64,000 nucleotides of DNA from Aurantiochytrium sp. KH105 (lineage: Eukaryota; Sar; Bigyra; Thraustochytrida; Thraustochytriidae), in NCBI GenBank assembly GCA_003116975.1, contig BGKB01000109.1:226726-290725 (forward strand), read 5' to 3'. Shown here one piece after another: positions 2,164 through 17,830 of this stretch. The position numbers and the translations under genes are program-made. The notes beneath the pieces were generated by a model that searched no databases, was not told where the DNA came from, and saw nothing but the letters and a program-made list of their open reading frames with translations. Each line of letters opens with the position of its first letter. Position 1 is the first letter of the stretch.

Positions 2164-4660
2164 AAGACGGTTAGTCGCGTCGCAGGTAGTGTCATTTTCA
2201 GGTTCAGAGTCGTGACCTGAGGACGAAAAAGTAAAACATGCATTTCGCAAATGGCAAGCCGCAGAATGCTCGTGGCGGTTGTACGTTGGTGGCTTTGTGC
2301 ATTACGATAAGGAAGTTCTTACAGAATCGTGCATGATGAAGCCAACGTGAACTGCGACAAGACAAAGAAAGTGTCAGCGGAGGAGATGCGACAAGACGAA
2401 GAAAGTGGAAGTGGAGGTGATACTTCTCAACGTCTCGTATAATCATCAAGCAAAGACAATGCAAGAGATAATAGAAGTAGCAAGATTTTGGCCCTCTTGC
2501 TCTGGTATTCTACATTTGCAAATCGAGCACAGACCCTTCATAAACTTGAAGCATGTTGTCTGCAGAGAAACTGAGAAGCAAGCTCTTTTGCTTGGGGATG
2601 AAGGTTTACGCTTTCAGAATTCATGTTGTAGCAGCCTGACTCCATGCCGTCTGGATGCTACCAACAGCTACAGCTAAGCCTGTTCGTCCTGGCCCAGAAT
2701 GCCACCGCAATAGCCAGCATTCATTCATTCATTTTGCGACCTTTACGGGCGCCCATTCGTTCATTCGCATTAGGTCCACCATACCCTACCTACCTGCCAC
2801 GCGCGGCCGCACCAAGGGGGGCAGTCTGGCAACCGCAAATGGACTCTCCAACAAGCAAGTAAAAAGGATGGAAAAAGAAAGTGAAAAGAAAGAAATGGAA
2901 AATGAAAAGCCCGACCGTGGTAGATGGGTGGATGGGACAGAGCAAAGTAAAAGAAAAGAAAAAGAAATAAAACGAAAAAAAGTAAAAGAAATACTTACTC
3001 GAGTCCGTTGAGTCAAGGCCGCCCGCGCGGGCGGTGCAAAGTACGGGACCGGGCGCCGCCCTGGCTCCCGTTCCGGTGCACTTCCCTCGCCGAACGCCTC
3101 GCACCCGACCCCGCTCCAGAACACTGACCTAATACAAAGTATGGCTTTGTGTCTGGTGCGCATCAACGGAGGGGGGCGGCACGTGTGGCGCGGGACACGG
3201 AACTCGGTGGCAGAGCTTCCCCTTGCGCGCGGCAGCTTCTTCCGGTCCGTTGATTGGCTGGACGCCCCCGGGCGGGCGGCGGCGCGGGCGGCGCGGAGGT
3301 ACGGGACCCGGGCTCGACCTTGGCGCGGACCTAGGCTTCAACTATACGGAAAGCTAGGCCCTCGCTGTCGCTGCACCGACTCGCTGCCACCGCCTGGACC
3401 GGCTCGCACCTCGCGGCGATGAATGGATGGGTGATTTTTTTGTTTGTTGATTAGTTGGCGGCGAATGGATAGTCGAGGTGGTAATGAAAAGCTCCGGCTT
3501 TTTCAGAGGTTGCTTGGTTGGTGGCCGTGACAGTGGCGACCAGTCAGTGGCTGGCAGGTGAATCAAGTCGGTGTAAACCGTATTTTCATTTGCAGGTTTT
3601 CGATCGATCAATCGACCAATCCATTTTCTCTCAAGAAGACGGCTAGTTTCCGTTGCTTGTATCGATCTGACTCGAAGAGGGAGGAGGCGATGCATTGTTC
3701 ATTTGAAACTCTCCAACCGACGCGGCGGCGCCAGTGAAGACGCAGCGCGTGCGTCTGAGGTGACCCTGCGAGGGAGCGGCAGGAAGCCTGCGAGGGGGAG
3801 GGAACGGAGGGAGGCGGCCGCGCCGGTTTCGGTGGCTAAAAAAGCCCCCCGCGAAAAAAGGGTTTCGGGTGGCGCGCGCATCCGCGGACGGCGCGGGACG
3901 TAGAATTTCGTCTAGCCGGCCAATAGCCCCCCTCTTCGCGGTAGCCGGCGTCAGTGTGGAACCGGCAGGAACGGGCGGTCTGGGACTCATTGGCGGCGAA
4001 AAGTTTTTTGTTAGATCAATCAACCAAATCAAGAAAAAAGAAAAAACAAAGGAAAAAGAAATCAAGGGGGGCGAATGGCGACGATGGACTACGTGTAGCT
4101 CTTAGGCTGCTGCCGTCCGTCCGTAGCGCGCCAACGGCGCTCGAACCGAGACGGCTCGAGTCGCCAGCTTTGGGCAAGTGGTGTCTCGGGCAACGGGCCT
4201 CTTTGCCCTGACGGAAGGGAGCGCGAGCGAGCGCAAGAGTACGACGACTCAAGGCTGTGTTTTGCTCAAGCTAGCTTATAGACTACCGGCCAGCGTGGCG
4301 ACTGGAGCGAGTCGGTCCAGGGAAGCTGGCTCCCGGGTGCGAGCCGATCCAGCGTGACGCGCTCGCAGCACCATCAGAACGGCGCGCTGCTTGACGCTTG
4401 AAGCGGTGCGCTCTGGCAGTCATGCCATGCCATGCCAATTCATGCCATGCCATGCCGTGGCAAGTTCAAGTTCAAGATCGAGATCGAGACCAACAGGTTG
4501 CATCGCGATGTTGCGGCGGATCTTCGTGAACGACGGAACCGTCATGGAGGTTGGGTATATCTCTGATCTGGAACAGGGTCGGGTCCGGTAGGGCCTTCCT
4601 GTTTGGTTATTATGTTGGTTGCGTTGCGTTCATCGACCGGTTCTTGTACGGACCGATGGA

Positions 4661-4692: not shown

Positions 4693-5177
4693 GCGCTGCG
4701 CGTCCGCATCCCTAAGCCACATGCCACTGGCACTGCTACCTTTCGACGTCTCGCTTCCTCTGCGCTGCTGCAGCTGCTGCTGCAGCTCGCCCCGGCGGTC
4801 GCACGCGTCCCAAGGATTCTCTATGGATCTTGAACTCGAGAGCGACAGCGAGCGAATCTCGCAAGCCTTTCTTCTGTTTTCGACTTGAGTCGTCCGCTTC
4901 GAGCCGAGTGGGTCCCTTGCACGAGCCAGGCCTGACGCTCGCACGCATCTGCTGCATGTCGCACTGTCGCGATCGCGTGCATGTCTGGGACTCGCGAGGC
5001 CGAGCGCGGCGGCGTCTCCGAGCACGTCCTTTTGAGGCCCTCACCTTTCAAGTTGCTGTTGCTCCCCCGAACGGCTTTATAGCGGCTCAGTGCAGCACGG
5101 AGGAGATGAGGCCCACCGGATCCGGCCTCGGCTTCTCATTCCATCGTCGCGATCTCTCTCCTCTGTTGGGGACCGTC

Positions 5178-15599: not shown

Positions 15600-15820
15600 C
15601 AGCCAGCTCGAGTCTTGAGAGGAGCAAAAACGAAAAAAAGCACATGTAAGGGTGAGGAAGGAATCTTGACAGCTTTCGCAGTGTTCCGTTGATCCGTTGT
15701 TCCGTTTTGGCAGTGAATCAACCTCTCAACGCTCGATCAAAGTATCATGAACAACCGTTACTATCTATCTCTATAATCAATATTTTACAAGCCGAAACTA
15801 GCATAACTTTACCAGAAGAG
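15600..15820 (-). ncRNA. Candidate right end / guide RNA region of the Fanzor element
   Basis: In IS605/IS607 systems the omega RNA overlaps the 3' end of tnpB and runs to the right end, its last bases serving as the guide. The 220 nt downstream of the nuclease stop is AT-rich and has no open frame of note. At 15683-15706 it contains three near-identical TCCGTT units (GTTCCGTTGATCCGTTG, then TTCCGTTTTGG), which could be subterminal recombinase sites or an RNA stem component. Position is inferred from family knowledge; no structure was computed. Confidence 0.3.
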
Positions 15821-17087
15821 TCACTTCGTGCACGAGATGGATTTGATGTAAATATTGCGAGCACCGTTGATGTCTCTGTCAACAGAGAGACCACAACGAT
15901 CACAGTTATATCGTGTATTCCCACCAAGATTGCGTTTCACGTATCCGCATCTTGTGCAGGTTTTTGAAGTGTTACTCTTCAGGAACGGCCAACGTGTTTC
16001 TTACATGTCCGTGGTTTTGAATGAGTCTGTCGTGAAAGCGGCAGTGAGAAAGCATTTGCATCTTGCGTTTCGCAGTTAGATGGAGCTTGTGTGATTCGAG
16101 GATACGCTTGACACCCAATTTACCAACCCGGATTTCTTGAAAGTTGTCCAGAAGAAAGCGAATGATTCTGTCGTGTGCGTCTTTGAGTTTGTTCTTCATT
16201 TTTGCCCGAAGCATTTGCTCTTTGCGCTTGTAGGTCTTCTTTCTATGAATGCGACTTCCAGTCTCTTCATCCCCATCCCGGGAGCTTCTGATCTGGTCAA
16301 TACGCTTTGCCAAGTCGAGCATATTGTAAGACTTGAATTTTCCACGTTTCTCAGAACCAGTCGTACGTGGCAAGACGTTGAGTGTTGCGCATAGTTTTGC
16401 ATCGTTCGAATAGAGTGTTTGAAAGTCACGAGCGCCTGGATCGAGAGTCGCGTCTTTGAAAGGTGCTGGTTTGAGCTTTTCTCGCTTTTTCTGATATGGA
16501 ATGATCAGGTACCAACGACCAGGCTCTTCGTAAACGATTTTGCAGTCCTTTTTAATCTTGGGAAGCTTTCGATTTCGCTTTTTCGAACCTTGACGTTTGT
16601 ATCGCAGTGGTCCAAATGGTTTAGCTTTGTCGTCAGCATCCAACCTCCACCTATATCGTTTCATGAGGAAGATGAAGTTGTCGTCAAATGCATTGTTCTT
16701 GGCGAACATACACTTTTGAACTGGAATAACACCAAAACCTCGCTTGTCGCGCCTTGACTGAAAGCGCATTTCGAACTTTTTCACAGTTCCAGCCTTTTTG
16801 TTCGAAAAAGCGGATTTGTAAGCTGCTCCTAGACGACGTAGAGTGTCACCACGCATATGGTATGGAAGACTCTCAATCTCGTCATCGAGCTTTCGTTTCT
16901 TCTCGACTACACGATTTAACGCTTTACGGGTTGGTCCAAGAAAGTACTTTTTCATCTCCGCAAAATGAGTGCCTACATTTCCTTTCTTGATATGCTCAAG
17001 AGCCAGGTTCCACAATGCACGTAGTGCGTGGTGAATTTTGGTAAAAATCTGTCTTTGACGAAGTTTTGGTCGCAGCTTAACTTTCAT
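15821..17087 (-). pseudogene. Fanzor/TnpB-like RNA-guided nuclease, single frameshift
   Basis: From ATG 17087 the frame is open for 371 codons to 15975, then hits TAA at 15974-15972. Omitting one A there restores YTSKTC and continues for 49 residues to a stop at 15821, for about 421 residues in all. Visible parts are the N-terminal TnpB-like segment (MKVKLRPKLRQRQ, then ALRALWNLAL), RuvC-I LDPGARDFQTLYS with Asp216, a basic bridging region, RuvC-II region VGKLGVKRIL (about 321-330), then SHCRFHDRLIQ, an EE pair at 370-371, YTSKTC, a CxxC...CxxC zinc ribbon (CTRC, CDRC) and RuvC-III SVDRDINGARNI. The RuvC-II site has Gly instead of the canonical Glu, as described for eukaryotic Fanzors, which use an alternative Glu further on. 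Only the frameshift breaks it. Alternatives are an assembly error or recoding. Confidence 0.85.
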
Positions 17088-17696
17088 CGATCTTATGTCG
17101 CTTTCTTCCTCCTCGGCTGCTTCGTTGACCGTGGAGACGACACCCAAAGACAGTGATGATTGAGACGAGGTCTTTGACGATTTCATCTTGCGGTCCTCCA
17201 TCGTCATCTTGTCCATTTGGATGGACAACTCGAATTGAGGCTCCTTTGGAAGTGACAATCCACTCGAGCAAGTCGAATGCGAATCGACAGAGACGGTCTC
17301 TATAGGTAACCACGACTTCTTCGAGTTCTCCTTGCATTGCGAGTTCCAGAATGGAACGAAGACCGCGCCTTTTGAAGTTGATGCCAGACCCAATGTCTCG
17401 GATGACTTAGTGTTTGGGGAAGTTTTCTTCGAACCAAGCGACTTTTGTCTGGAGAGGTCGTCTTTCTGCGCTTTGCTACTGACTCTTGCATAACACAGTC
17501 GACGTCGCTCAACTTCCGTTTGCCTAGGAATGTCCGAGTTAATGTCAAAGTCCTCGATACATACTCGTCGGTGTCCGCCTTTTGTCCTGTAACTTCTGAC
17601 TTTGTTGTCGATAGCGTAGTTTCGTATTCTATCTCTGTGCAGTCCGAGCCGCAAAGCGGCGACTCCAACGGAGACGTAGTGTCGCTCGTCTGACAT
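17077..17696 (-). pseudogene. IS607 TnpA serine recombinase, frameshifted and interrupted
   Basis: From ATG 17696: a MerR-type helix-turn-helix (YVSVGVAALRLGLHRDRI, then TKGGHRRV) followed by the resolvase start CYARVSSKAQKDDLSRQ with the catalytic Ser in the ARVSS motif. Near 17436 the frame is lost by one nucleotide. The remainder is in the next frame: FEENFPKH, a TAA at 17409-17407 where family members usually have Glu, then VIRDIGSGINFKRRG, EVVVTYRDRLCRFAFDLLEW and IITVFGCRLHGQR, ending at 17077. All blocks are standard IS607 TnpA, so one 1-nt deletion and one nonsense change inactivate it. Because the first frame stays open through the damaged zone, it runs on into the nuclease gene and gives a false 574-residue fusion. 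Confidence 0.85.
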
Positions 17697-17830
17697 CGAG
17701 CGACACCACCAACCCGAGTTTCGGTTGTGCTGGAAACGATCCTACAATCTTCTAATAATTTGTTGTAACTGCTTGTCCCCGGCAAGTTGCTGATTGTTGA
17801 CGGTAGAATCAGTGCGGATCTCGCTCTCCA

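Follow-up and report, generated by a model that had tools for sequence, protein, structure and literature searches.

A predicted N-terminal nuclease module overprinted on the transposase gene of IS607-type Fanzor elements in Aurantiochytrium and related loci

The stretch analyzed here, 64,000 nucleotides of Aurantiochytrium sp. KH105 (contig BGKB01000109.1, positions 226,726 to 290,725; hereafter the window), carries on its minus strand a copy of an IS607-type element with two genes: tnpA, for a serine recombinase, and a gene for a Fanzor2 nuclease. As judged from sequence comparison with sister copies and with relatives in prokaryotic and viral collections, this lineage very probably carries a dual-coded N-terminal nuclease module overprinted on tnpA, so that two proteins would be made from one DNA stretch. 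The parts of the window copy are given below; throughout, L numbers denote loci and C numbers contigs.

15755..17778, minus strand: IS607-type element, family A copy, about 2.02 kb; the left end lies near 17778 and the right end at 15755, where the 89-95% nucleotide identity to sister copies stops.
17077..17696, minus strand: tnpA, IS607 serine recombinase with a MerR-type N-terminal helix; disrupted by a change of frame and then by an in-frame stop.
17088..17690, minus strand: candidate overprinted N-terminal Fanzor module in the +1 frame inside tnpA; the upstream start codon and the frame are lost here and are open in L015, L016 and L027.
15821..17087, minus strand: Fanzor2 core (helix domain, RuvC with LDPGARDF, zinc ribbon YTSKTC..DRDINGARN), with a frame change before the zinc ribbon.
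15755..15820, minus strand: right end, 3' of the Fanzor stop, terminating ..TAGTAACGG; the 3' part of the reRNA/omega RNA would be expected here.

An earlier sequence-only reading had placed two overlapping genes, for an IS607-like recombinase and a Fanzor, in an AT-richer island. All of the TnpA and Fanzor motifs that it quoted are indeed present on the minus strand, and the island is evident from the guanine-cytosine (GC) content, which is 0.446, 0.445 and 0.515 in successive kilobases from 15 kb, 0.503-0.528 just before and 0.638 just after. The assignment to IS607 is supported by a PF00239 (Resolvase) match at 17077-17337 of the window (3.4e-7) and by the match of TnpA from the sister copy L016 to the NCBIfam model NF033518 transpos_IS607 (3.7e-51). 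A PF07282 match of the genome search (C109:242576-242701) corresponds to window positions 15851-15976. The genes themselves are not intact. The tnpA frame switches after the catalytic motif and then meets an in-frame stop, and the Fanzor frame switches before the zinc ribbon and lacks the start codon beside the tnpA start. The window copy is a pseudogene, a dead copy of the family A transposon, and the idea of a working nuclease and recombinase at this site had to be given up. A 574-residue open reading frame at 15972-17696, which matches OrfB_IS605 at 8.5e-5 (23.2 bits, below the cut-off of 30.5), was rejected as a real protein; it is an artefact that runs from tnpA on into the Fanzor frame. 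The extent first proposed for the element, 15600..17830, was corrected to about 15755-17778 by means of the sister copies and a homologous site. No Rfam match was obtained for the whole window at gathering thresholds. The nested reading frames, which the earlier reading overlooked, are in our view the most interesting feature.

Sister copies elsewhere in the genome, some with open genes, were found as anticipated. A profile search of the assembly (76.03 Mb, 367 contigs) returned 25 PF07282 matches on 23 contigs and 17 PF00239 matches. By group, 17 of the 25 PF07282 matches fall into family A (including the fragment L029), six into family B and two elsewhere. Family B splits into B1 (L013 and L014) and B2 (L024, L025, L026 and L036). 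Pairwise identity is ∼87-99.9% among family A copies and 98-99% among L024, L025 and L026. Both tnpA and the Fanzor gene are open in L016, L024, L025 and L026, and the Fanzor frame is open with a damaged or shortened tnpA in L013, L014, L015 and L027. A reading of some copies as non-autonomous deletion derivatives was dismissed: the gaps are assembly N (99 bases in L019, 781 in L020 and 587 in L036, and a single N in L021, L023 and L028). Against NCBIfam, TnpA of B2 matches the same IS607 model at 1.1e-36, and the nucleases match guided_TnpB at 9.9e-32 (A) and 3.8e-42 (B2).

The nucleases carry a DPG fingerprint in RuvC-I, which reads LDPGARDF in family A and MDPGVRCF in B1 and B2. E370 and C377, the first cysteine of the zinc ribbon, are separated by six residues and are invariant across A, B1 and B2. 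DPG combined with an alternative glutamate six residues before the zinc ribbon is given as the Fanzor fingerprint in the available text of PMC10711439, and its presence in the sister copies bears out the earlier call of a Fanzor, not an ordinary TnpB. The closest solved protein to the L016 nuclease is the mimivirus TnpB-like protein L79 (PDB 9b0l, 1.7e-25). The nucleases described here appear to be of the Fanzor2 type, encoded together with an IS607 TnpA, and RNA-guided cleavage is predicted for them.

In L016, tnpA comprises 205 codons, and the Fanzor frame, +1 to tnpA, is open from before the tnpA start. The Fanzor ATG lies 7 nt after the tnpA ATG and would yield a protein of 621 residues, ∼200 of them encoded inside tnpA. 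Such a nested ATG was present in eight of the 12 family A copies in which the start region was found (L015, L016, L018, L019, L020, L021, L027 and L032). Given the codon usage of the element's own core, the probability of an open overlap by chance is 0.0011 for A, 0.0012 for B1 and 0.004 for B2; when its own tnpA codons are shuffled, the value for A is 0.004. To our knowledge, a coding overlap of this kind would be among the longest same-strand overprints outside viruses. The family A module also contains KRKL..KRRK, which by eye resembles a nuclear localization signal (putative).

An alternative explanation, which we consider improbable, is that codon bias and the conservation of TnpA leave the +1 frame open as a by-product, with the Fanzor starting at the core ATG and the N-terminal stretch left untranslated. 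It is favored by the tnpA codon shuffles for B1 and B2, in which openness was not unusual (P 0.38 and 0.28, respectively), and by the public record of a Trichormus plasmid (L204 1119-2931), in which the annotated TnpB begins at the core; there, the frame is open for a further 528 nt and tnpA is interrupted once. The distribution of stops among relatives speaks against it. The prokaryote collection genome_contigs was scanned with an alignment of the three families, and the best 80 of 243 relatives, mostly cyanobacterial, were used. Counts refer to the 64 of these 80 loci with a TnpA domain match and at least 50 codons to the stop; the 16 loci without a TnpA match were excluded. The +1 frame of tnpA contains no stop in 55 of the 64, one in six and two or more in three, against null means of ∼3-17; the +2 frame has 4-25. 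In the five one-stop loci with at least 170 tnpA codons, the +1 frame opens no more than 130 nt from where tnpA starts. The loci with two or more stops are L053, L078 and L094, and the last two lack DPG.

Relatives in viral_contigs were not found in the first two scans of that collection; the third returned 60. Of the 39 viral loci in which the TnpA domain spans 50 codons or more, eight have no +1 stop, ten have one and 21 have two or more. In 21 of 34 DPG viral loci, five of which look near-identical (L158, L160, L165, L171 and L194), the frame opens 58-232 nt inside tnpA and is open from there on. The viral overlap is shorter than the cyanobacterial one and still extends over hundreds of bases. 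In the non-DPG viral loci L179 and L183, the number of stops is close to the null (22 in L179 against 21.8 expected; 27 in L183 against 31.2). L146, a virus-collection contig of 21% GC, has tnpA at 2344-2982 and the nuclease at 2351-4033, nested from +7, and its open frame, where 18 stops would be expected, is difficult to attribute to codon bias. The two proteins neighboring this pair gave no Pfam match.

IS607 elements of other lineages share the order tnpA-tnpB and the serine recombinase with those studied here, and have been described as having "two orfs, which often overlap" (PMC6188088) or coding regions "overlapping or separating" (PMC9956272), in the parts of these papers available. 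They differ in the extent of the overlap. In 12 such elements from named plasmids, the annotated tnpA and tnpB share no more than 50 nt, and none in three of the 12, and the +1 frame contains 4-23 stops, with nulls of 6.6-20.6, which again argues against a by-product. These controls are 12 of 15 plasmid regions, L136, L139 and L143 having been left out for incomplete annotation of tnpA or tnpB; the tnpA start of L130 was taken from the match, not the annotation.

The pattern of substitutions bears on the same question. Between B1 and B2, third-position differences amount to 0.397 within the overlap, as against 0.588 in the core (Fisher p=5.6e-5), and protein identity is similar in the two regions (0.69 and 0.67, respectively). 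Fourfold sites were less diverged in the overlap in all six identity classes (43 sequences; 815 of 903 pairs, which are non-independent). When the comparison was confined to codons without T at position 2, which permit no +1 stop, the overlap was less diverged in 19 of 21 disjoint pairs (Wilcoxon 1.6e-5), a constraint reaching beyond the stop-capable codons, which counts against a by-product. Of 42 loci, L078 and L094 were left out of the constraint test, as their frame opens late.

Residue columns were compared in 65 tnpA genes (40 from genome_contigs, three from this genome and 22 viral). In one column, the alternative frame encodes W in 64 of 65 while the TnpA residue is Leu in all 65. Elsewhere the alternative frame is nearly fixed over a variable TnpA residue: L in 62 of 65 (TnpA V31/I24/L10), W in 61 of 65 (mainly V39/L20/M3) and P in 60 of 65 (mainly A24/S18/T18). 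In 14 controls, the same columns hold mixtures of residues, with stops at most of them. Since the second frame is fixed where the first varies, codon bias is an unlikely source of the pattern, and W and P held against changing TnpA residues are hard to reconcile with an untranslated stretch. From these comparisons, the second frame is judged to be under selection in this lineage.

The position of start codons is relevant to how the nuclease frame might be entered. Among the 42 genome_contigs loci with at least 170 tnpA codons, 28 have an ATG in the nuclease frame at +4 to +19 (p=2e-19 against 6/64), the nearest one being mostly at +4 to +13. Translation of the nuclease would be initiated within tnpA, at an ATG that follows the tnpA start by 4-13 nt in many loci and by 60-265 nt in others, and its frame would run +1 through the rest of tnpA and into the nuclease core. 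Because the start codons are adjacent, both proteins may be made from one transcript by alternative initiation, which in eukaryotes would be leaky scanning. Programmed ribosomal frameshifting is another way to use a +1 frame: TnpA and the nuclease would be joined in a fusion, and the frame would be kept open to permit shifting. In its favor are the +1 offset and the overlap of the Fanzor frame with tnpA, both seen in nearly all cases, and the position of the first Fanzor ATG of B2, 163 nt into tnpA. A shift near the end of tnpA, however, would need fewer open codons and would leave no constraint over the whole overlap. The ATG right beside the tnpA start in 28 of 42 loci, and a module that outlasts the interruption or detectability of tnpA (below), also make frameshifting quite unlikely.

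A profile of the module was built from the alternative-frame peptide of 43 sequences, 40 of them from surveyed loci. Among loci not used in training, it matched in the nuclease's own frame in 23 of 34 DPG loci of genome_contigs and 35 of 37 viral DPG loci, as compared with three of six and three of 20 non-DPG loci, respectively, and none of 13 control plasmid loci. With training loci included, the module is found in 62 of 73 DPG loci of genome_contigs and 35 of 37 viral ones. The seven non-DPG loci with a module have DSG, DCG, DQG or DVG in RuvC-I where the motif was found. Of the 13 DPG loci without a match, five carry the module after a change of frame; three (L064, L076 and L091) start where the available sequence ends and L072 starts close to that point; L080, L085 and L114 lack the module; and L187 has a visible PFW motif without a profile match. 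A stretch of approximately P[YF]WNEFCQEISSLLWLPT characterizes the 92 members with a PYW/PFW-like motif, and in many it is followed by SWFS ahead of the first nuclease helix. No Pfam family covers the module at E 0.001; up to E 1, the sole match is PF13040 in L146 (0.11).

The module stays open where stops interrupt tnpA (L050, L056, L101, L103 and L105). It also begins the nuclease in the virus-collection contigs L166 (2297-3607), L185 (1880-3334) and L187, in which tblastn finds no tnpA in the available sequence; the module matches of L166 and L185 are weak (E about 0.003), and the nucleases of all three contigs show a PxW motif close to their start. Retention without an intact tnpA runs counter to both a by-product of TnpA coding and a frameshift fusion. 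As the module persists without tnpA, its role would lie in the nuclease particle rather than solely in docking to TnpA. The overprinted module may belong functionally to the nuclease ribonucleoprotein, where it would most likely pack on the RNA-binding core, because it is kept where tnpA is undetectable.

Several observations weigh against a dual-coded module, in addition to the B1 and B2 codon shuffles. For B1 and B2, once the number of changes is allowed for, those in the alternative frame are not conservative to a significant degree (P=0.14), and the absence of stops has P=0.07. Two of the 21 disjoint pairs go in the opposite direction. Column counts overstate the number of independent events, since the sequences are related. 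The window copy, L017, L030 and L031 do not have the nested ATG next to the tnpA start, nor do 14 of the 42 long loci of the survey; the first Fanzor ATG comes 163 nt into tnpA in B2, as noted, and 60-265 nt into it in many viral loci. The open frame of L152 is unremarkable (P 0.24). Among the 55 stop-free loci, five have the nuclease core in another frame or apart (L063, L068, L082, L093 and L122); these are probably decayed genes. The DPG genes L080, L085 and L114 have no module next to the core, which indicates that the module can be lost. Finally, four of 13 control loci gave weak module matches in another frame (E 4e-6 to 1e-4).

The ends of the elements were examined in the sister copies. 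Family A copies terminate in ..ACGG at the right end in 15 of 16 copies shown, L032 having lost ACGG, and begin near CTGAAGCAGTTAC at the left end. The flank before the left end is GG in 10 and AG in two of the 12 family A copies shown; this boundary was set by eye, and L017 and L031 share one flank. A binomial test on a conservative count of 7/10 gave p=2e-7 for GG. In family B, the left end is preceded by CG, TG or GT and is less clear than in family A. The sequence of the family A right end is conserved, and the predicted fold for L016 was not better than those of shuffled sequences (z -1.04). In L021, the last bases of the right end (oriented 5026-5130) are tandemly repeated beyond the element end.

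The assembly appears to carry both of two diverged haplotypes, as seen on C144/C203 (the profilin loci L039/L040) and on C11/C18 (L034/L035), which makes empty sites findable and the insertions probably heterozygous. When the joined flanks of 11 insertions were used as queries, the homologous stretch was empty or near-empty for seven: L025, L021, L020, L015, L030, L024 and the window copy. The matches for L020, L030 and L024 are imperfect near the junction. No clear empty site was obtained by this query for L016, L018, L026 and L027; a second pair of L018 matches on C49 was rejected as an empty site, as a different repeat lies at this homologous site (L048, C49:189600-191870). Comparison with an allele lacking the insertion, which the sequence-only reading had proposed, was possible on C4, which is homologous to the window flanks and is without the element; ∼125 bp between the flanks there are absent from the window allele. 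The empty site of L021 reads AATAGGATAG, and the occupied ends are AATAAGG and GGATAG, consistent with the expected IS607 exchange at GG without duplication. The empty sites of L021 and L030 both fit insertion at a GG dinucleotide without target duplication.

These sites also bear on whether the element is bacterial contamination in a eukaryotic assembly, as the mostly cyanobacterial origin of the best 80 of 243 genome_contigs relatives might suggest. Because the homologous stretch shares the flanks and is empty or near-empty for seven of the 11 insertions queried, and with 25 PF07282 matches of two families spread over 23 contigs, contamination is a reading to which we attach almost no weight. 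Five of the six other long open reading frames of the window match Pfam above the cut-off (purple acid phosphatase-like, SH3, MED14, polycystin and ion transport), the MED14, SH3 and ion-transport domains counting against a contaminant.

By analogy with known families, for which chemistry at GG and RNA-guided cutting are described in the available parts of PMC10711439 and PMC6188088, TnpA would excise and insert double-stranded DNA at GG. The Fanzor, with a right-end RNA using the flank as guide, would then cut the empty allele, which would help the element to be retained or to home.

In a tree of 101 core sequences, family A groups with the viral contig L146 (0.646, weak), and B1 and B2 fall together (1.0), apart from A and beside a cyanobacterial clade; the deeper branching order was not relied upon. 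The lack of a sister relationship between A and B suggests two separate acquisitions, without proving them.

Fanzor2 in IS607-type elements of eukaryotes is not new, contrary to the novelty first suggested for the window: Bao and Jurka (2013; PMC3627910) tabulate cases from Acanthamoeba, Phytophthora, yeasts and giant viruses. Their ACa-1/-2, ISvMimi and ISvAR158 likewise combine a serine recombinase with Fanzor2 and have neither terminal inverted repeats nor target-site duplications. They differ from the present elements in that a nested N-terminal frame is not mentioned in the main text of that paper, and in that here two families that are not sisters occur in one genome. The cyanobacterial pro-Fanzor IS607 TnpBs of Yoon et al. 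(2023; PMC10711439) share DPG, the alternative glutamate and the IS607 TnpA, and the nested architecture was found in the present analysis in loci of this cyanobacterial pro-Fanzor type. That paper covers the pro-Fanzor lineage and its reRNA, and its available text makes no mention of an overlap or reading frame. A nested nuclease frame is likewise not described in the available text of PMC3627910, PMC10432273, PMC11423790 or PMC11061315, and no paper title or abstract opening reporting one was found; subscription journals are mostly outside this coverage, so that the negative is no proof of novelty. IS607 Fanzor2 elements in eukaryotes are already known, and in the literature covered the nested nuclease frame was not found described.

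In mimivirus L79 (9b0l), residues 79-170 match a profile of the module plus the first core helix (4.1e-13, 52.7 bits), a score that is partly due to the core helix (∼16-21 bits in TnpB chains when taken by itself); the PxW half of the module is not recognizable by eye in the alignment. A Microcoleus phage record (L205 1179-2886) has the full 561-residue nuclease frame annotated and an open tnpA frame of 200 codons unannotated. Annotation can hide the nested pair, tnpA being omitted in this record and the nuclease shortened in that of the Trichormus plasmid.

Some further features of the genome were observed. No match to PF00504 (light-harvesting) was obtained, the profilin is distant from that of Acanthamoeba, and searches with two 18S patterns gave no match. 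Tandem arrays of ∼306-bp units lie beside two family A copies (L017 7180-9315; L033 6994-8932). L034 (4723-4981) and L035 (4286-4751), on the homologous contigs C11 and C18, are weak Fanzor-like zinc-ribbon fragments without a TnpA or module match; they may belong to a further type of Fanzor or be what is left of a domesticated copy. For 5S ribosomal RNA, 47 matches were scored, and many of those listed lie within ∼20 kb of contig starts, a placement that suggests subtelomeric ribosomal DNA.

Beyond the dual coding itself, a broader proposal is put forward tentatively, with the balance of our judgment slightly against it: most complete IS607 Fanzors and pro-Fanzors may carry the tnpA-overprinted module, which would be needed in the native element, would tie nuclease and transposase together so that neither mutates freely, and would have been carried as a free-standing domain into Fanzors that lost or left tnpA. 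If so, constructs starting at the core ATG would be missing a native domain. Fanzors are eukaryotic RNA-guided nucleases now studied as editors, and a hidden conserved N-terminal part of ∼120-200 residues would affect their annotation, cloning and testing. The module would mark the lineage thought to have given rise to Fanzors, and it would make testable why this TnpB lineage travelled with TnpA into eukaryotes.

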